From positions 1-33,143 of the forward strand of contig JADMJT010000039.1 of NCBI GenBank assembly GCA_018781585.1: a stretch of 33,143 nt of DNA. The letters run 5' to 3'. This DNA comes from Burkholderiales bacterium (lineage in GTDB: Bacteria > Pseudomonadota > Gammaproteobacteria > Burkholderiales > Thiobacteraceae). Below, one piece after another: positions 3,812-25,362 of this stretch (its first letter is position 1; each line of letters starts with the position of its first letter). The notes beneath the pieces are model-generated. The model was not told where the DNA came from. It saw only the letters and a list, made by a program, of their open reading frames with translations, and did no database searches. A program made the translations under genes and the position numbers.

Positions 3812-3910
3812 GGTGGCGAGCCTGACCCCCGGCACTTGCAGTGAGTGGCTGTGGCTGCTTCCTTCCGGACCTGACCAGATTCACCACCTTGCAATGCGGG
3901 GAGGCCCGCC
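3812..3910 (-). ncRNA. ffs: Bacterial small SRP RNA (4.5S RNA)
   Basis: The minus strand contains the near-invariant SRP domain IV core GGTCAGGTCCGGAAGGAAGC followed by AGCC (about 3852-3875), which binds Ffh. The ends pair: GGCGGGCCTCCCCGCA at the 5' side (3910-3895) against TGCCGGGGGTCAGGCTCGCC at the 3' side (about 3834-3815). This gives the long hairpin of about 100 nt typical of the short Gram-negative SRP RNA. It lies in the gap between the TauD-like gene and dnaX. Exact ends are uncertain by a few bases. Confidence 0.95.
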
Positions 3911-3961: not shown

Positions 3962-4861
3962 CTAAGAGAAATCAAGTGCGTCACAGCCACGCATGCGATC
4001 GTGGTAGCGCGCCCGGTAGATCACACGCTTATGTTCAGGGCTATCGTCAAAACCCGTGCGATCATGTAACACATTGTTGCAAATCAGGCCCATGCCCGGC
4101 GCCAGACGGACATGAAAAATATAGGGCGAATCGGCGGCGAGGATCGCTTCCAGCACGGACAAGGCGGCTTTCACTGCGGGGGTATCTTTCCAAACGATGC
4201 TTTTGGTACGCGCGGTGTAGCGCATGTGCAGCGCGCCACTCTCAGGCAATACTGAAAATACCGGGCCGGTTTCCTCGGCGCGGGCGATGCCGCTCTCGTC
4301 CAGGCGCGCTGGGATACTCATTGCATCTGACTCAGAAAGGGCACGGATGTATTCGGGGTTCTGGTCACGCAGCAGGATGTAGGCGATCTCATGATCGAGC
4401 AGGCGGTTGTCGCCGCCCTCTTCCGCGCTTTGCACGCAATGCAGAATCATGCCGCAGATACGACGATCGATCGTGTTGTAGTAGCCGTCGGTGTGCCAGC
4501 GGATCGGTTTGTTGGTGTAGGGGATGAATTCGCTGCGCGGGCCATGCGTTTCTTCCGCAACGGTGAGCGTGGAAATCGCATCTTCGTCGGCAAGCATGTT
4601 GTGGTCGAGGCTCGTCATACCAAATTGCTCGCCCATGCGGCGCGGCAAATCCTTGTCCGCTTCGGCATGGGTGCTGGCGTAGATCGCCATATTGGCGCGG
4701 CGGCAGCGATCCAGAATCGCGACGTGTTCATCTTGGGTGAGGTGGCGCGGATCGCCTATCTCGACGATCAGATCATCTGCGCGCTGCGGGTAGTGGGCCA
4801 GCTTGGCGTCGCGCCACAAGCGATACGCCACATCGTTCGCCAGGTCGAAGGGGCTGGTCAT
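3962..4861 (-). CDS. TauD/TfdA-family Fe(II)/2-oxoglutarate dioxygenase
   Basis: A protein of 299 aa from the ATG at 4861, which overlaps the stop of the upstream gene (ATGA). The facial triad of 2-oxoglutarate-dependent dioxygenases is visible: the HxD motif in IRWHTDGYYN (H123, D125) and the distal His in NNVLHDRTGF (H266). An arginine suited to bind 2-oxoglutarate follows in RVIYRARY (R279 or R283). Family members hydroxylate taurine, alkyl sulfates, sulfonates or other small acids; the substrate here cannot be read from sequence. Position behind a 3-mercaptopyruvate sulfurtransferase and a DsrC paralogue suggests a sulfur compound, but that is inference. A reading frame extends further upstream to 4966, but it runs through the preceding gene and was rejected. 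Confidence 0.83.
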   Translation of the reverse strand: MTSPFDLANDVAYRLWRDAKLAHYPQRADDLIVEIGDPRHLTQDEHVAILDRCRRANMAIYASTHAEADKDLPRRMGEQFGMTSLDHNMLADEDAISTLTVAEETHGPRSEFIPYTNKPIRWHTDGYYNTIDRRICGMILHCVQSAEEGGDNRLLDHEIAYILLRDQNPEYIRALSESDAMSIPARLDESGIARAEETGPVFSVLPESGALHMRYTARTKSIVWKDTPAVKAALSVLEAILAADSPYIFHVRLAPGMGLICNNVLHDRTGFDDSPEHKRVIYRARYHDRMRGCDALDFS

Positions 4862-5448
4862 TGGGCTGGCGCCGCTTCCTGACGCGGGAAAAAACCATTG
4901 ATCAGCTTGGCCACATTCTCGATCGCTTCTGGCGCTTGAAATTCGATGATCTGGTCGATAATCCAAGTTTGGTCGTGCGATTCCATCCGGTCACGCATCA
5001 CATTAGCCAGGTAACGTTTGATGGCGTAATTCGGCTCATCGGGCGGAAAATCGAAAGTCGCATAGTCTTCACTGCGCCGATTGAGAAAATCCAGAAACTC
5101 GCCCTGGTAATCACGTATATCCGTGTCGTCGTTCAGCAGGTCATGAATATTGGTCGCCATAAACTCACCCAGCTTGACGCCTGCCGCACCAATCAAGGCG
5201 GTGCGGCGCGCTTCGTCTACGCGATCGAACAACATGCGGTCAGCGATATGCAGCATGAATGCACCCATCTCAGCGATGATGCCAAAGCCGCGGCCCGGGT
5301 TGACGATGTCGTAATCCGCTTTGGAAATATCGTCCACGGCTTTAGAGGCCATTTTCCAAAAAGTCAGTGCGAGCACGCTCGCGGTTTCATCTTCCGCTCG
5401 CCCCGCGTCTTTGCGAAACCAAGTAGTTTTAATACGTAACTGGGCCAT
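4858..5448 (-). CDS. Unknown 196-aa protein in sulfurtransferase-dioxygenase operon
   Basis: I do not recognise a family. The product is 196 aa, soluble and mostly helical by composition, with no signal peptide, no cysteine and no obvious catalytic motif. It is rich in acidic residues and has an aromatic N-terminus (LRIKTTWFRKD). The gene starts inside the stop of the sulfurtransferase gene (TAATG, one base shared) and ends inside the start of the dioxygenase gene (ATGA, four bases shared). The three proteins are therefore almost certainly translated from one mRNA with coupling, and probably act in one process. A partner or chaperone of the dioxygenase is one possibility, unsupported by motifs. 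Confidence 0.8.
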   Translation of the reverse strand: MAQLRIKTTWFRKDAGRAEDETASVLALTFWKMASKAVDDISKADYDIVNPGRGFGIIAEMGAFMLHIADRMLFDRVDEARRTALIGAAGVKLGEFMATNIHDLLNDDTDIRDYQGEFLDFLNRRSEDYATFDFPPDEPNYAIKRYLANVMRDRMESHDQTWIIDQIIEFQAPEAIENVAKLINGFFPRQEAAPAQ

Positions 5449-6293
5449 TAATATCCTTTAACCACTGGATGGGTCGGGTCGGCGACCCACTCGCTCCAGG
5501 ATCCGGCGTAGAGCTTGGAGCCTGTAAATCCGGCGATTTCCATTGCCAAAATATTATGGCAAGCGGTGACGCCCGAGCCACACATGTGGATCACTTGCTG
5601 AGGTGGCTTACCATCCAATAAATCGCCATACAGTTCGCGCAATTCTTCAGCCGTCATCATGTTGCCCGCCATGCTGAGATTATCATCGAACGGCGCATTC
5701 ACCGCATGCGGCACGTGGCCCGCGACGGGATCGAGCGGCTCGATCTCGCCGATGAAGCGCATCTCGGCGCGCGCATCGACGATCAAGGCCGAATGCATTT
5801 GCGAAGCATCCAGCACCGCGTCCGCGCCCACCAGCATGTCACTGCGAACATGGGGCACAAACTGTTTCGGCGTGACCGGCGGCGTCTCTGCGGTGAGCGG
5901 CCGTTGTTCGCGTTGCCATTTCGGCAGGCCGCCATCGAGCAAGGCCACGGCATCGTGGCCCAGCCAGCGCAGCATCCACCATAAGCGCACCGCCATCGCA
6001 CCAAAACTGTCGTCGTACACCACGACTTGGGTTTGATGATCGATGCCCCACGCGCCGAGTGTTCGCGAAAAATCCTGCGGATCAGGCAAAGGATGGCGGC
6101 CATTGCTGCCGTTTTTGGCGCCGGATAAATCCGCATCTAAATGCGCATAGCGCGCACCAGGAATATGCCCTTGCGCATAGGCTTTACCCCCCGCTTCGGT
6201 ATCCGTCAGGGTAAAGCGGCAATCCATCACGACCCAATTCGGGTCGGACAGATGTTGCGCGAGTTGTTCTGTGGAAACGAGGGTGGTGTGCAT
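5448..6293 (-). CDS. sseA: 3-mercaptopyruvate/thiosulfate sulfurtransferase (two rhodanese domains)
   Basis: A protein of 281 aa with two rhodanese domains, the usual SseA size. The catalytic loop VIHMCGSGVTACHN near residue 240 carries the CGSGVTA form typical of 3-mercaptopyruvate sulfurtransferases; thiosulfate sulfurtransferases usually have CRKGVTA. N-terminal landmarks are LVSTEQLAQHL and VVMDCRF. The enzyme moves sulfur from 3-mercaptopyruvate to thiol or cyanide acceptors by a cysteine persulfide. It lies downstream of a DsrC-like gene (gap 77 bases) and is translationally coupled to the next gene. In this setting it may feed persulfide sulfur into the dsr pathway, as rhodaneses do in other sulfur oxidisers; this is inference. 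The gene symbol is by family, not proven orthology. Confidence 0.9.
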   Translation of the reverse strand: MHTTLVSTEQLAQHLSDPNWVVMDCRFTLTDTEAGGKAYAQGHIPGARYAHLDADLSGAKNGSNGRHPLPDPQDFSRTLGAWGIDHQTQVVVYDDSFGAMAVRLWWMLRWLGHDAVALLDGGLPKWQREQRPLTAETPPVTPKQFVPHVRSDMLVGADAVLDASQMHSALIVDARAEMRFIGEIEPLDPVAGHVPHAVNAPFDDNLSMAGNMMTAEELRELYGDLLDGKPPQQVIHMCGSGVTACHNILAMEIAGFTGSKLYAGSWSEWVADPTHPVVKGY

Positions 6294-6370: not shown

Positions 6371-6703
6371 TTAGTAGCCGCCCTTACCGTAAGGCTTAGG
6401 CAAGGCCGCTACGCGCACGGCTTGACGTGCAGGTTGCATCGGGAATAAGTCGTACAGCTTCTTCTTCCAATCCAAACCCGGATGCTCTTCGTCCATTTCT
6501 TTGATGAAATTACGAAAATTGGGGGTTTGTCCATCTTCCTTGTACTTGCGACGCAGAAATTCAATCACCATCCAGTGTTCGTCGGTCAAGGTGAGCCCCT
6601 CTACCGCCGCGATCGCTTTTGGCGCTTCATCGTCATAATTCGGCTCGACCAAAAATTTCTCGTCGTCGTAGTCGAATTCTTCACCATTAATCATATAACC
6701 CAT
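6371..6703 (-). CDS. DsrC-superfamily protein lacking both redox cysteines (RspA type)
   Basis: A protein of 110 aa that aligns along its length with DsrC/TusE: an N-terminal MINGEEFDYDDEKFL, a helix-turn-helix-like middle (LTDEHWMVIEFLRRKYKEDG), then KKLYDLFPMQPARQAVRVAALPKP. Canonical DsrC ends QAC...GLPKPTGC-X. Here the inner Cys is Val (QAVRV) and the tail is YGKGGY, so neither sulfur-carrying cysteine exists. Cys-less members have been grouped as RspA, with a proposed regulatory role rather than sulfur transfer (established family knowledge, recalled). A strong AGAGGAG ribosome binding site precedes the ATG. It lies 50 bases downstream of the Cas6-like gene. A full DsrC is encoded at 11495. 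Confidence 0.88.
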   Translation of the reverse strand: MGYMINGEEFDYDDEKFLVEPNYDDEAPKAIAAVEGLTLTDEHWMVIEFLRRKYKEDGQTPNFRNFIKEMDEEHPGLDWKKKLYDLFPMQPARQAVRVAALPKPYGKGGY

Positions 6704-6753: not shown

Positions 6754-7452
6754 TTAACTTACCGCCGTGATCGACTTGTGCGGAATGAATATTCCGCAGC
6801 CGAGCTTGCGATTCGTTCCCAAACCATCTTGTTGAATCTGCAAGGCATGCTCGATCGGCAAACCATGCAGCATTAAGCTATATCCGTATTCGATGCCTTG
6901 AGGCGTCGTCAATGTCTGGCGCTTGCCGCAAATGAAGCGGCTATCGATACTTAATTCATCTAACAAGCGAATGACATCTGCCGCAAAAGTCCTTTCGTCG
7001 CTACTGCCGGTCGTCACGCAATGGGCATATAAGGGTGTATGCCACGATAAAGACCGTAGCTTACCCACGCCAATGGTGAAAGCATGGCCGTCAATCGTAA
7101 ATTCCCTGCCCGTCAGCTTTATCAACTCAGCCACCCGGTCACGCGGCGTACGAATGATGAGTTTACAGCGCCGACTCACCATCAGATTGCCATCACCCAA
7201 ATTCGCGCCTTGGATCGGATGAATACCTAACAATTCCTCATCGGCAATCCATGGCATCAAATCGGCTAGCGCCAAAAACAAGGCATATCCATGATCGACA
7301 GGCAATAAATTAGCCTTGAGTTCAAATTGAATGTCGGTGACTGCCGCTTCGTCTAGATCCGGCTTGACGAAGCCCTCGTCCGCTAACCAGCCGATGATGT
7401 TTCTCCTACTGCAGTACAAATCAGTGCCGCTCGCGAAAGTTGTCGCAAACAA
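6754..7452 (-). CDS. Orphan Cas6/Cmx6-like CRISPR RNA endonuclease homologue
   Basis: The frame encodes up to 232 aa. From about residue 40 it matches what I know of the Cas6 subtype Cmx6 (type I-MYXAN): DIQFELKANLLPVDHGYALF with a DHGYxL motif (H54), then GIHPIQGANLGDGNLMVSRR. It continues with a central GHAFTIGVGKLRSL and ends in the glycine-rich loop GLGTNRKLGCGIFIP (about 210-224) typical of RAMP/Cas6 RNA-binding folds. Cas6 enzymes cut repeat RNA to make crRNA. No CRISPR repeats and no other cas genes lie in the window; the neighbours are sulfur genes. No ATG exists in the first half: candidate starts are TTG at 7452 or 7419, or a non-canonical ATC at 7395-7398 just behind AGGAG (7407-7403). 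Family call fairly sure; function unknown. Confidence 0.75.
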   Translation of the reverse strand: MFATTFASGTDLYCSRRNIIGWLADEGFVKPDLDEAAVTDIQFELKANLLPVDHGYALFLALADLMPWIADEELLGIHPIQGANLGDGNLMVSRRCKLIIRTPRDRVAELIKLTGREFTIDGHAFTIGVGKLRSLSWHTPLYAHCVTTGSSDERTFAADVIRLLDELSIDSRFICGKRQTLTTPQGIEYGYSLMLHGLPIEHALQIQQDGLGTNRKLGCGIFIPHKSITAVS

Positions 7453-7640
7453 TTAGCCAACTCACTCCCGCGCATTATTTCATTAATCCGCACGCACAAA
7501 GTTGCGAATTCCGCTTCAAGCTCGGCTACCCATAAAATCCCTTTAGCAGAAAAGGACTTTCCGGTTAATACCGCCAACTTCCTAAGATTTTCCAAAGCGG
7601 TGCCTACTGTTGTAAAATATGAGCCTATTAAGATAATCAA
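7383..7640 (-). CDS. Possible small unknown ORF overlapping the Cas6-like gene
   Basis: An open frame of 85 codons beginning at a TTG and containing no early ATG. The product is unrecognised, Leu/Ala/Glu-rich and probably helical (TVGTALENLRKLAVLTGKSF near the start). Composition looks like a real protein rather than a random frame. Its stop (7383-7385) lies about a dozen bases past the ribosome binding site of the Cas6-like frame, a layout typical of translational coupling. It could also be the frameshifted N-terminal part of the Cas6-like gene, or only a leader. It is first in the divergent minus-strand module facing dsrA. Confidence 0.35.
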   Translation of the reverse strand: MIILIGSYFTTVGTALENLRKLAVLTGKSFSAKGILWVAELEAEFATLCVRINEIMRGSELANCLRQLSRAALICTAVGETSSAG

Positions 7641-7820
7641 ACAGGCGGTGGTAAATCAAGCCTTCTTACACCCGACTGCCTAAGTAGGGGGTAGATATAC
7701 TCCATTTGGGGGGTAATGGGCTACCTACTCAGAATGATAGTGCCGGGCATTCACACGGCAGTAATATTTTGCACACTTCAAGCCGACCGACATCCCTCGG
7801 CAAGGCAAACAGGTCCTGCT

Positions 7821-7849
7821 TTGAAAAACACTTTCCTTGTGGGTATTTT
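7821..7849 (+). promoter_or_regulatory. Candidate sigma-70 promoter of the dsr operon
   Basis: TTGAAA (7821-7826, five of six to the -35 consensus) and TATTTT (7844-7849, four of six to -10) are separated by 17 bases. They lie about 40 bases upstream of the dsrA start, in the AT-rich end of the divergent intergenic region. dsrA itself has GGAGAG seven bases before its ATG. No repressor or NarL-type site could be assigned with confidence. The promoter is a pattern match only. Confidence 0.35.
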
Positions 7850-7890
7850 TTAGGTTTTATCCTTTTTATTAGTGAACGGAGAGACACGTC

Positions 7891-9180
7891 ATGGCTAAGA
7901 AAATTCAAGCAACGCCAATGCTCGACCAACTCGAAACCGGCCCATGGCCTAGCTTTGTAACTGGCTTGAAGCGCCTGGCCAAAGATAACGATATGATGGT
8001 TGATCTGCTCGGCCAACTCGAAACCTCTTACGAAACCCGCAAGGGCTACTGGAAAGGTGGCACAGTCGGGGTGTTCGGTTATGGTGGTGGCGTGATTCCC
8101 CGTTTCACCGAACTCAAGAAAGATGGTAAGCCGGTTTACCCGGACGCTGCTGAATTCCATACCTTGCGTATTCAACCGCCTGCCGGCATGCATTACAGCT
8201 CCAAGCTGTTACGCGACATGAGCGATGTATGGGCCAAACATGGCTCCGGCCTGATCGCCTTTCACGGCCAATCTGGCGACATCATGTTCCAAGGCATTAC
8301 CACCGCGAACGTGCAACCCGCTTTCGATGAGCTTAACGAAATGGGCTTCGACATGGGCGGCGCAGGCCCCGCACTCCGCACATCGATGTCATGCGTTGGC
8401 GCTGCACGTTGCGAAATGTCTTGCTACGACGAAGCCCGTGCACTGCGTACCGTTATTAATAACAATCTGGATGACATGCACCGTCCAGCCTTGCCTTATA
8501 AATTTAAATTCAAATTCTCCGGTTGCCCGAATGACTGCGTGAACGCTATTCAACGTTCCGACATGGCAACCATCGGCACTTGGCGCGACAACATTCAGAC
8601 CAATGATGTACATGCCAAAGCCTGGGTCAACAAGAACGGCATGGAAGCTCTGGTTAACCAAGTCGTTTCCATGTGCCCAACCAAAGCGATTTCCCTCAAG
8701 AAAATCGGCGAAGCCGCTAAAGGCGACGGTATCTCCACCGTTGCCGTCAACGATACGCACTGCCTCGAAATCGACAACCACAACTGCGTACGTTGCATGC
8801 ACTGCTTAAACGTGCTGCCTGGCGCCCTGTTGCCCGGTAAAGACCGTGGCGCGTCGATTTTGATCGGCGGCAAGGGCGTGCTGAAAATCGGCGCGACCAT
8901 GGGCACCATGGTCATCCCGTTCATGAAGCTCGAAACCGATGAAGATTACGAAAAACTGAACGAGTTGGGTCGTAACGTTCTCGACTTCTTCGCTGAAAAC
9001 GCTTTGGAACACGAGCGCACTGGCGAGATGATCGACCGCATCGGTCTGGTCAATTTCCTTGATGGCATCGGCCTCGAAGTAGATCCGAACATGATCCGCG
9101 AGCCGCGCAACAATCCTTACTTCAGAGGTGACGATTGGGATGCGGAAGTAGAAAAGTGGAACGAGCGCCAAGCCGGCTAA
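7891..9180 (+). CDS. dsrA: Reverse-type dissimilatory sulfite reductase, alpha subunit
   Basis: A protein of 429 aa, full length for DsrA. Siroheme/[4Fe-4S] cysteines are in SMSCVGAARCEMSCYD (C168, C174, C178) and SGCPNDCVNA (C212, C216). An inserted ferredoxin domain follows, with MCPTKAISL near residue 260 and NCVRCMHCLNVLPGALLPG near 302-320. With DsrB it forms the cytoplasmic alpha2beta2 sirohaem enzyme. In sulfur oxidisers this runs in reverse, oxidising DsrC-bound or stored sulfur to sulfite with six electrons. First gene of the dsr operon; dsrB follows after 37 bases. The oxidative direction is inferred from the dsrEFH and dsrL genes in the operon. Confidence 0.97.
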   Translation: MAKKIQATPMLDQLETGPWPSFVTGLKRLAKDNDMMVDLLGQLETSYETRKGYWKGGTVGVFGYGGGVIPRFTELKKDGKPVYPDAAEFHTLRIQPPAGMHYSSKLLRDMSDVWAKHGSGLIAFHGQSGDIMFQGITTANVQPAFDELNEMGFDMGGAGPALRTSMSCVGAARCEMSCYDEARALRTVINNNLDDMHRPALPYKFKFKFSGCPNDCVNAIQRSDMATIGTWRDNIQTNDVHAKAWVNKNGMEALVNQVVSMCPTKAISLKKIGEAAKGDGISTVAVNDTHCLEIDNHNCVRCMHCLNVLPGALLPGKDRGASILIGGKGVLKIGATMGTMVIPFMKLETDEDYEKLNELGRNVLDFFAENALEHERTGEMIDRIGLVNFLDGIGLEVDPNMIREPRNNPYFRGDDWDAEVEKWNERQAG

Positions 9181-10288: not shown

Positions 10289-10295
10289 TTAGGTT

Positions 10296-10332
10296 CATCA
10301 TTCCCGGTTCTCCCTCGAGATCGGGGATGATG
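10296..10332 (+). terminator. Hairpin between dsrB and dsrE (attenuator or mRNA-processing element)
   Basis: CATCATTCCCG (10296-10306) pairs with CGGGGATGATG (10322-10332), 11 pairs with one G-U, plus an inner TCTC/GAGA. TTATTAAAAAA follows, so the plus strand lacks a U-run and strong termination is unlikely. It sits eight bases after the dsrB stop and about 35 before dsrE. A role in lowering read-through or protecting the dsrAB mRNA end is inference. Confidence 0.55.
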
Positions 10333-10366
10333 TTATTAAAAAACCTTACTTAAATCAGGGGTTTTA

Positions 10367-11830: not shown

Positions 11831-11847
11831 ACCTATAGTCGCGTGAC

Positions 11848-11874
11848 GCGCCGCTTGATTGCATCAAGCGGCGC
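11848..11874 (+). terminator. Perfect 12-bp hairpin after dsrC
   Basis: GCGCCGCTTGAT (11848-11859) and ATCAAGCGGCGC (11863-11874) form a perfect GC-rich stem with a TGC loop, 17 bases after the dsrC stop and about 40 before dsrM. No U-tract follows (TGTACACG), so it is better seen as a partial attenuator or 3'-end stabiliser. Such an element would raise dsrC mRNA relative to the membrane-complex genes. The structure is firm; the role is inference. Confidence 0.65.
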
Positions 11875-11913
11875 TGTACACGCACAACAACATCGTCAAA
11901 TGTGAGGTAGGTC

Positions 11914-23533: not shown

Positions 23534-24199
23534 TTAACTCCCGTTTTGCCCTTGTGTGGCAAATTTATGTTCCACGGCAAAGACAGCTGCTTCTACGCGT
23601 GATGATAGATTCAGCTTGGCAAGTATGTGCCGCACATGGAGCTTCACCGTGTCGTGGCTAATATTAAGCGCGCGGGCAATCGCCTTATTGGATTGGCCTC
23701 GACTTAAGTAAGAGAGTATCTCGCGCTCGCGCTGGGTGAGCAGAGACAGCAAAGAATCCGGCGTGCCTTGCTTCTGATCCAATAAATTGACCAGCTTGCC
23801 GGTCATCTCCGCCGCCACCACGGTTTCACCGCGTGCAGCGCGCAGAATCGCATCCTCTACATCGTTCGGCTCCATGGTTTTAAGCAGGTAACCGCGCGCG
23901 CCGGCGCGCAGGGCCGCTGCCAAGTCCTCTTGCGAGTCGCTGACCGTTAATAGCAAAATTGGTAGGGTGTGTCCCGCTTCGCGTAATTGGGTCAGCAACG
24001 TGATGCCATTCGTGCCCGGCATATTAAGATCAAGCACCGCCACATCGGGCCGATGTTCATCCAATAGGGCTGCCGCTTCGCTCGGCTTGCCGGACATGGC
24101 CACCACGCTGACTTTGCCATGGCGCTCTAGGAGCTCAGCCAGCCCCATGCGGAATAGAGTGTGGTCATCGAACAACACAACACGAATCGCTTCAGTCAT
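23534..24199 (-). CDS. NarL/FixJ-family response regulator
   Basis: A protein of 221 aa. The receiver domain has DD at 11-12, the phosphoacceptor Asp57 in VAVLDLNMPG, the LLTVSDS segment and a conserved Lys in GYLLKTMEP. The C-terminal LuxR-type helix-turn-helix (LTQREREILSYLSRGQSNKAIARAL onwards, about 151-205) binds DNA. It is most like NarL. The start ATG overlaps the stop of the kinase gene (ATGA). The pair points towards cysG and dsr, so control of the sulfur genes by a redox or nitrogen-oxide signal is plausible but not shown. Confidence 0.93.
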   Translation of the reverse strand: MTEAIRVVLFDDHTLFRMGLAELLERHGKVSVVAMSGKPSEAAALLDEHRPDVAVLDLNMPGTNGITLLTQLREAGHTLPILLLTVSDSQEDLAAALRAGARGYLLKTMEPNDVEDAILRAARGETVVAAEMTGKLVNLLDQKQGTPDSLLSLLTQREREILSYLSRGQSNKAIARALNISHDTVKLHVRHILAKLNLSSRVEAAVFAVEHKFATQGQNGS

Positions 24200-25362
24200 G
24201 CGGCGCTTACCTTGCGTTGGGTGGCGGGAAATTCAAGGTGCACACGCATCCCTTGCCCGATATGACTTTCAAAAATAATTTCCCCTCCTAATCGCTGCGC
24301 GCGCTCGCGCATGATATTCAAACCCAGGTGCATGCCGGGGCCGGCATCATGGGCATTAAGCCCGATACCGTCATCTTGCACCGTCACCGCATATTTTCCT
24401 TCGATTAATTCTATACTGATACGCACATTGCGAGCGTGCGAATGCTTGGCGATATTCGCCAGTGCTTCCTGCACGATGTAGAACACCTGCACTTCTTGAT
24501 CCGGGGTCAAATCAATATCGTTCACCCGGTTGGCAAATACCACCTCGACACCGGTACGGTTATGAAAGTTTTGGATCACATCTTCCAACGCCGGCAACAA
24601 GCCGCGCGGATCCATTTTCTGGCGGAATTGATTCAATAGCTCGCGCAGGCCGGAATAGGCGGTTTCCATCGCGTCATCCACCTGGGCGAGGTATTTTTGC
24701 GTATTGGATTTATCGCCGTCATGAATCGCTTCATTCAGCAACGCTAAGCGCATTTTCATATACGCCAGGGTTTGTGCGAGCGAATCATGGATTTCATTCG
24801 CCAACATCTGCCGCTCATCCATGATGGTGATGCGCAAGTTCTCACGCGTCAGCCGCGCATTTTCCAGCGCCATGCCCAAATGCTCGCTGATGGAAAGAAA
24901 CAACAAGGAAATTTCTTCCGGAATAGGTCGATCATCGGGCATGAACAGGTTGTACACACCCATCACCTTGCCCTTGTGTCGTAGTGGCACGGCGATCACT
25001 TCTTTGCAGCGATTGCCAAAAAAATCCAAGGCCATGGTTTCATGACAAACCTGTGAGGCCACATCCGACTGAATCCCAATCTCATGCGCTGCGCGTCCGC
25101 AGACACCGCAACCGACCGGCACCAGATATTCGCGATCGATCACTTCCTGCGGCAGTCCAATGGCGCCCACCATGCGCATGTGCGCACCATCTGCCGTCAG
25201 TACCCGCACCGCGCCCCCACCCGCTCCGGCAAGCCGGATCATGGTCTGCAAAAAGCGATCCAGAAGATGCTCCAGATCAGCATCGCTGCTAAGACTGGTC
25301 GCGATCTCCGAGAACGCCCGCATGGCGGGGATTTTGTATCGGCTGCGCTCTTCGGAATCCAT
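24196..25362 (-). CDS. Soluble GAF-domain sensor histidine kinase, NarX/NarQ-like C-terminal half
   Basis: A protein of 388 aa with no membrane helices, hence cytoplasmic. A GAF domain (about 20-165) is followed by HisKA_3 (NEIHDSLAQTLAYMKMRL, phosphorylated His192) and a HATPase domain with NIAKHSHARNVRI, DDGIGLN and GLNIMRERAQRLGG. The GAF domain has a set of cysteines, C85 and C88 (GCGVCGR), C106 (VCHE) and C119 (GNRCKE), resembling the cysteine module of NarX/NarQ. A metal cluster or thiol-redox sensor is a reasonable guess. NarX itself has two membrane helices and a nitrate domain, which are missing here, so the signal differs. Confidence 0.92.
   Translation of the reverse strand: MDSEERSRYKIPAMRAFSEIATSLSSDADLEHLLDRFLQTMIRLAGAGGGAVRVLTADGAHMRMVGAIGLPQEVIDREYLVPVGCGVCGRAAHEIGIQSDVASQVCHETMALDFFGNRCKEVIAVPLRHKGKVMGVYNLFMPDDRPIPEEISLLFLSISEHLGMALENARLTRENLRITIMDERQMLANEIHDSLAQTLAYMKMRLALLNEAIHDGDKSNTQKYLAQVDDAMETAYSGLRELLNQFRQKMDPRGLLPALEDVIQNFHNRTGVEVVFANRVNDIDLTPDQEVQVFYIVQEALANIAKHSHARNVRISIELIEGKYAVTVQDDGIGLNAHDAGPGMHLGLNIMRERAQRLGGEIIFESHIGQGMRVHLEFPATQRKVSAA

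Follow-up and report, generated by a model that had tools for sequence, protein, structure and literature searches.

The window, that is, the whole stretch of 33,143 nucleotides analysed here, contains at 6754-7452 on the reverse strand an open frame of 232 residues with similarity to Cas6, which lies between dsrA (starting at 7891 on the forward strand) and a DsrC-family gene (6371-6703, reverse strand). The frame begins with a TTG codon immediately 3′ of an in-frame stop, and its true start is uncertain. The features of the region are the following:

3962-4966, reverse strand: TauD-like 2OG-Fe oxygenase (PF02668; TIGR02409 and TIGR02410 far below cutoff)
4858-5448, reverse strand: 196-residue protein with no Pfam or NCBIfam match
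5448-6293, reverse strand: two-domain rhodanese (PF00581; NF008557 below cutoff)
6371-6703, reverse strand: Cys-less DsrC paralogue with the C-terminus KGGY (PF04358, E 1.2e-27)
6754-7452, reverse strand: cas6
7453-7890, no strand: cas6/dsrA divergent intergenic region, with conserved blocks at about 7690-7790
7891-9180, forward strand: dsrA, with which the divergent dsr operon begins
10289-10366, forward strand: dsrB-dsrE gap with a strong hairpin, a candidate RNA element with a possible link to Cas6
11831-11913, forward strand: dsrC-dsrM gap with a strong hairpin that is not specific to cas6-bearing operons

This arrangement agrees with an earlier note on the sequence, which had placed the gene between the divergent dsrA and a Cys-less DsrC paralogue. 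In the divergent region only sequence blocks near dsrA were kept between related genera, and those at 7690-7790 likely represent a regulator site and the dsr promoter. The oxygenase was weakly similar to gamma-butyrobetaine/trimethyllysine dioxygenases. A NarL/NarQ-like pair is located at 23534-25362 of the window. The only Rfam match in the window was the small bacterial SRP RNA (RF00169) at 3812-3910 on the reverse strand, and neither the divergent region nor the gap separating cas6 from its partner gave a match to an Rfam family.

The product of the frame matched the Pfam Cas6 family PF09559 (E 4.9e-60, 203.2 bits against a cutoff of 26.7), the NCBI equivalog cas6_cmx6 of type I-MYXAN (TIGR02807, 155.6 bits against a cutoff of 98.85) and six PADLOC Cas6 models. 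Both the DHGYAL motif and the C-terminal glycine-rich loop GLGTNRKLGCGIFIPHK were present, in agreement with the Cas6/Cmx6 assignment proposed earlier, and no other PF09559 match was found in the genome. The Cas6 core domain spans approximately residues 35-227. The predicted structure had a mean pLDDT of 73.5 and a pTM of 0.54, with residues 1-30 below a pLDDT of 50 and a domain orientation that is not reliable. Fold comparison of this model indicated two predicted ferredoxin-like (RAMP) domains. The whole model was matched to 8fcu_B with a VIA Z of 14.8 over 187 residues and an rmsd of 10.8, a value to be read with the poor domain orientation of the model. Taken separately, the N-terminal half fitted Cas6/RAMP structures at 2.1-2.3 Å over 99-100 residues and the C-terminal half fitted Cas6e/Cse3 at 2.6-2.9 Å over 86-92 residues. 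The nearest solved relative was 8fcj_B, the Cas6 of a type I-B CAST (E 1.2e-15 with a single sequence and 9.9e-26 with a 22-sequence profile). The dsr-linked protein and the type I-B CAST Cas6 (8fcj_B and 8fcu_B) have the G-loop in common, with VIA Z values of 14.8 and 14.5 over 187-188 residues; the CAST protein, however, works in a CRISPR-transposon Cascade, and the protein described here adjoins dsr, not Cascade, genes.

Species genomes were scanned by a pattern-based method with this one query, which gave 24 related cas6 loci. The DsrC paralogue was the next gene in all 24, the rhodanese was found in 23 and the divergent upstream dsrA in 22. At the locus lacking the rhodanese the contig ends first, and at the two loci lacking an upstream dsrA (L011 and L024) it reaches only 521 and 118 bases beyond the match in the upstream direction. 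Such a recurrence of the neighbourhood is far beyond chance.

Among the 399 genomes of the window's order, PF09559 was found in 80, in one copy each, and dsrA in 87 (84 over the cutoff and three with split or cut genes). Both genes were present in 80 genomes, cas6 only in none, dsrA only in seven and neither in 312. All 80 copies of cas6 lay beside dsrA and divergent from it, 77 of them within 1 kb and the rest at 2.0, 2.1 and 5.0 kb. A class sample of 273 other genomes, many of them fragmented and two of them (G049 and G093) also belonging to the window's order, contained cas6 in 90 and dsrA in 92, with 86 genomes carrying both, four cas6 only, six dsrA only and 177 neither. The copies of the order belonged to 36 genera and those of the class sample to 72, the window's genus being included in both counts. 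In the class sample 64 of the 90 copies were within 5 kb of dsrA on one contig, always divergent; of the other 26, four came from genomes without dsrA, 21 had dsrA on another contig, and one (G506) was 41 kb from it on the same contig. The Fisher P for co-occurrence, uncorrected for relatedness, was 1.7e-76 in the order and 4e-58 in the class sample. The conservation of the divergent pair thus extends to other dsr genomes, as the earlier note had suggested looking for, and the view that this orphan protein with a Cas6 fold is linked to the dsr locus and not to CRISPR is supported.

Many of the mismatches coincided with contig edges. In seven of the 13 genomes with dsrA only (G468, G604, G477, G507, G520, G122 and, for one of two copies, G145) dsrA was either cut by the end of its contig or less than 2 kb from it, on the side where cas6 would lie, and in all four genomes with cas6 only the contig ends no more than 2.4 kb from this gene on the side where dsrA would lie, so the true match between cas6 and dsrA may be tighter still. 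In G608, with dsrA only, dsrA was not so close to a contig end on that side, and five dsr genomes (G132, G083, G217, G277 and G306) lacked cas6 with no contig edge nearby. Retention of cas6 away from dsrA, at 41 kb in G506 and with no dsrA within about 5 kb in G495, G577 and G455, argues for a function in trans. A phylum sample, searched for cas6 alone, gave three PF09559-positive genomes among 249, all of the window's order and included in the counts above, one being the genome of the window itself, and a search for viral and phage relatives of the dsr-linked Cas6 gave none. Second copies of dsrA were observed in 11 genomes of the order (L178-L188), with no dsrB beside them by tblastn; cas6 and a KGGY partner were also missing from the stretches fetched around them, three of which contain another DsrC-family gene.

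The partner gene at 6371-6703, which we take to be a DsrC paralogue of the RspA type, also belongs to the TusE/DsrC family TIGR03342, and its product has no Cys in the last 14 residues. Cys was likewise lacking from this segment in all 101 distinct DsrC-family partners found directly downstream of cas6 (0/101), and 100 of the 101 end in KGGY, the exception (L024) being read through an undetermined base; the comparison leaves aside 32 loci without a partner within 400 bases, five of them cyanobacterial and several short. The lack of the C-terminal Cys is shared with the RspA-type paralogues, from which the partner differs in the KGGY end and the pairing with cas6 found in the present analysis. 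RspA as the name of a Cys-less DsrC paralogue was not found among the open-licence papers listed for DsrC/TusE. The KGGY tail is unlike the end of DsrC (GCI or GCV), and it may serve in binding or be a site of modification.

Neighbours were counted at 60 of the 80 order loci and 28 of the 90 class loci, picked for long contigs and variety and seen in stretches of limited length. A DsrC-like protein ending in GGY was near cas6 at 54 of the 60 beta and 21 of the 28 gamma loci, the TauD-like oxygenase at 51 and 20, the gene of the 196-residue protein at 57 and seven, and a rhodanese on the same strand at 31 and one, respectively. The KGGY partner is usual but not universal: in G338 it is about 9 kb from cas6, and a whole-genome search found no KGGY protein in G317 and G322, where cas6 is present. 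No DsrC-like protein ending in GGY was found in the dsr stretches of the five cas6-lacking genomes named above. Three of these stretches (G217, G277 and G306, of one genus) also lacked dsrEFH and kept the oxygenase and the 196-residue protein gene. This is the gene content of the dsr stretches L171, L172 and L176 (one genus), where dsrA, dsrB, dsrC, dsrM and the TauD gene were present and dsrEFH, cas6 and the KGGY partner were not found.

For the study of conservation, 127 distinct dsr-group Cas6 sequences were aligned; identical sequences were removed, and near-duplicates from two collections may remain. Residue numbers are those of the aligned domain. The C-terminal loop has the form GLGxxRxxGCGIF, and the four glycines in it are conserved in 125, 126, 126 and 127 of the 127 sequences. 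R70 was kept in 127/127, R64 in 126, E122 and G145 in 125 each, K195 in 122 and H194 in 113. The positions R64, E122, G145, H194 and K195 were mostly missing from five cyanobacterial relatives. As judged from the aligned sequences, the dsr-linked Cas6 is a subfamily with its own invariants, a set defined by comparison with the cyanobacterial relatives. In addition, Cas6 and DsrA distances were correlated over 78 loci (Spearman 0.66, with none of 1000 permutations as high).

The His of the DHGY motif, at the start of helix 1, is the putative catalytic residue, judging from its position. It is present in the protein of the window and in 94 of the 127 sequences, with N in 17 (mainly in the Thiobacillus group), Y in 14, S in one and F in one. 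Since the CAST Cas6 8fcj carries Asn at the matching position, loss of the putative catalytic His decides nothing on activity.

The earlier note had named two hairpins in the dsr operon as possible substrates of the protein. Both exist, within 10289-10366 and 11831-11913, and their candidacy as Cas6 substrates has found no support so far. The dsrC-dsrM hairpin was present at 35 of 38 cas6-bearing loci and also in 13/13 operons in whose fetched stretch no cas6 was found, which comprise five from cas6-lacking genomes (5/5), two from G591, with cas6 on another contig, and six with dsrA at a contig edge. As it occurs in cas6-lacking genomes too, it is not supported as a specific target and was rejected. 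A strong dsrB-dsrE hairpin was found in 35 of 58 distinct beta gaps and four of 19 gamma gaps; its absence from 15 of the 19 cas6-bearing gamma operons and from one large beta clade speaks against a role as substrate. The mean identity of this gap was 0.87 over six sequences versus 0.62 in the divergent region. Among the betas the hairpin accompanied H or N at the Cas6 His site in 46 of 55 cases and Y or F in none of 14, but the DsrAB tree reduces this in essence to a single event in one clade, and the correlation was set aside as evidence. The sequences of both hairpins vary widely and the stems persist. Strong hairpins were also present in the dsrA-dsrB gap (22/60 beta and 13/19 gamma). A conserved sequence AAAACC...GGGGTTTT was observed at 10339-10366, before dsrE, which could pair away the ribosome-binding site of this gene. 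No conserved hairpin was seen between cas6 and its partner in 101 gaps, for which reason an autoregulatory hairpin at this site was rejected, and the divergent region, inspected at eight related loci, showed no evident sRNA-like structure.

A rival explanation is processing of crRNA for a CRISPR system elsewhere in the cell. The above-cutoff match to the I-MYXAN equivalog would fit, as would the presence of a Cas1 match in 28 of the 80 cas6 genomes of the order. Nevertheless, Cas1 was found in 121 of the 319 others (P 0.70; the Cas1 counts include weak matches, 1 of 149 being under the cutoff), so that cas6 does not track Cas1, of which the dsr-linked Cas6 is independent. In agreement with the earlier note, no CRISPR-like array was found in the window by a scan for repeated 18-mers: there were 15, none with three or more copies, and at least ten of them lie in the first 310 bases. 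The search of the window's genome (98.7% complete) for cas genes covered three families: Cas1 and DevR/Cas7 were not found, and no Cas3 match passed the cutoff. With all 80 order copies beside dsrA the gene context does not place this Cas6 in a CRISPR system. Relatives beside cas3/cas8 were found only on cyanobacterial plasmids, with 25-31% identity. These type I-MYXAN Cas6/Cmx6 proteins belong to the same Pfam and NCBIfam family (TIGR02807) and share the DHG/DHN motif and the G-loop, but four of the five loci fetched, of seven matches, contain cas3 and cas8/cmx8 where the dsr-linked gene has dsrA and the DsrC paralogue. A trans-acting crRNA nuclease was rejected on these grounds; the explanation is largely refuted, and we consider it very improbable. 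In the Gloeobacter morelensis plasmid locus L166, Cas6/Cmx6 was observed beside PAPS-reductase-family and cupin genes with no other cas gene in the stretch, possibly another non-CRISPR use. The suggestion that the gene is a stray from a lost CRISPR locus is ruled out by its recurrence in the 36 genera of the order and the 72 of the class sample. Nor is a non-functional remnant hitchhiking beside dsrA credible, and we give it hardly any weight: it would agree with the lack of a known target and with the match in G660 (class), which is split in two pieces, but no internal stop was found in the 80 order matches or in the class matches listed, the conservation is specific to the subfamily, and the gene is retained in genomes of 1.0-1.6 Mb and away from dsrA. 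Purifying conservation refutes this reading.

Two further explanations accept a function at the dsr locus. In E. coli, TusE works in tRNA thiolation, and the Cas6 could act on tRNA or another cellular RNA of the sulfur relay, not on dsr mRNA, with the partner steering sulfur of the TusBCD-like DsrEFH between tRNA thiolation and energy metabolism. Membership of the partner in the TusE/DsrC family is consistent with this, as is the joint lack of cas6, dsrEFH and the KGGY partner in G217, G277 and G306. These three are, however, of one genus, and a partner without a C-terminal Cys (0/101) cannot carry sulfur in the manner of TusE; we regard the explanation as unlikely. Similarly unlikely, in our estimation, is a Cas6 fold serving as a protein scaffold only, in complex assembly or in DNA binding at the dsr promoter, without a role in RNA. 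The variable His of DHGY and a divergent place at the dsr promoter, typical of regulators, would suit such a scaffold, and Allochromatium vinosum DsrC is described as able to bind DNA upstream of the dsr cluster in the part of PMC5944118 consulted. Against it, the positions with the highest conservation include the G-loop, which is the RNA-binding landmark of Cas6, and two basic residues, R70 and R64.

There is good support for the exaptation of Cas6 to a task linked with dsr. As the gene adjoins dsr in most of the sampled dsr-bearing beta- and gammaproteobacteria without a sign of CRISPR, it was probably taken over as a helper of sulfur oxidation, perhaps an RNA regulator. Of the earlier interpretation, the orphan, dsr-tied Cas6 with a conserved neighbourhood remains, and the named hairpins as substrate and the stray do not. 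A more specific reading, to which we attach not quite an even chance, is that Cas6 left CRISPR, became a fixed accessory of the beta- and gammaproteobacterial dsr locus and acts there as a post-transcriptional RNA-binding factor. A structured RNA would be bound through the retained RAMP surface and the glycine-rich loop. In lineages that keep the catalytic residue the bound RNA would be cleaved, and in those with Tyr for His the protein perhaps binds RNA without cleaving it; in either way the stability or the translation of dsr transcripts may be adjusted. The intercistronic dsr hairpins are candidate substrates only. The Cys-less DsrC paralogue may link such control of dsr transcripts to how far the DsrEFH/DsrC relay is loaded with sulfur, and post-transcriptional dsr control with this paralogue as the sensor is put forward tentatively. 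It is likewise conceivable, at somewhat less than even likelihood, that the domesticated Cas6 and the Cys-less, KGGY-tailed paralogue together make up an RNA-based module that is dedicated to the control of Dsr sulfur oxidation and present in nearly all Beta- and Gammaproteobacteria with dsr, and which would have been overlooked because cas6 is annotated as a CRISPR gene.

In the literature, one earlier drawing of a dsr cluster seems to have included cas6: the legend of Figure 3B of a 2023 study of mangrove MAGs (PMC10989796) lists this gene among dsrABCMKJOP, dsrEFH and dsrL, and in the portions of that article consulted it is named once in the main text and passed without comment in the section on the figure. 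No description of the association as such was found in the consulted portions of the open-licence literature on cas6 and dsrAB, and elsewhere in those portions, where both are named, cas6 belongs to CRISPR systems.

In two large groups of sulfur oxidisers a gene named for a CRISPR nuclease thus follows the dsr operon in a nearly one-to-one relation, which implies an unrecognised, probably RNA-based, step in a well studied energy pathway, and its role can be tested in culturable Thiobacillus or Sulfuricella. The label "orphan Cas6" in a sulfur bacterium does not have to mean a remnant of CRISPR, and the dsr-linked protein clearly exemplifies the exaptation of a Cas6 outside CRISPR.
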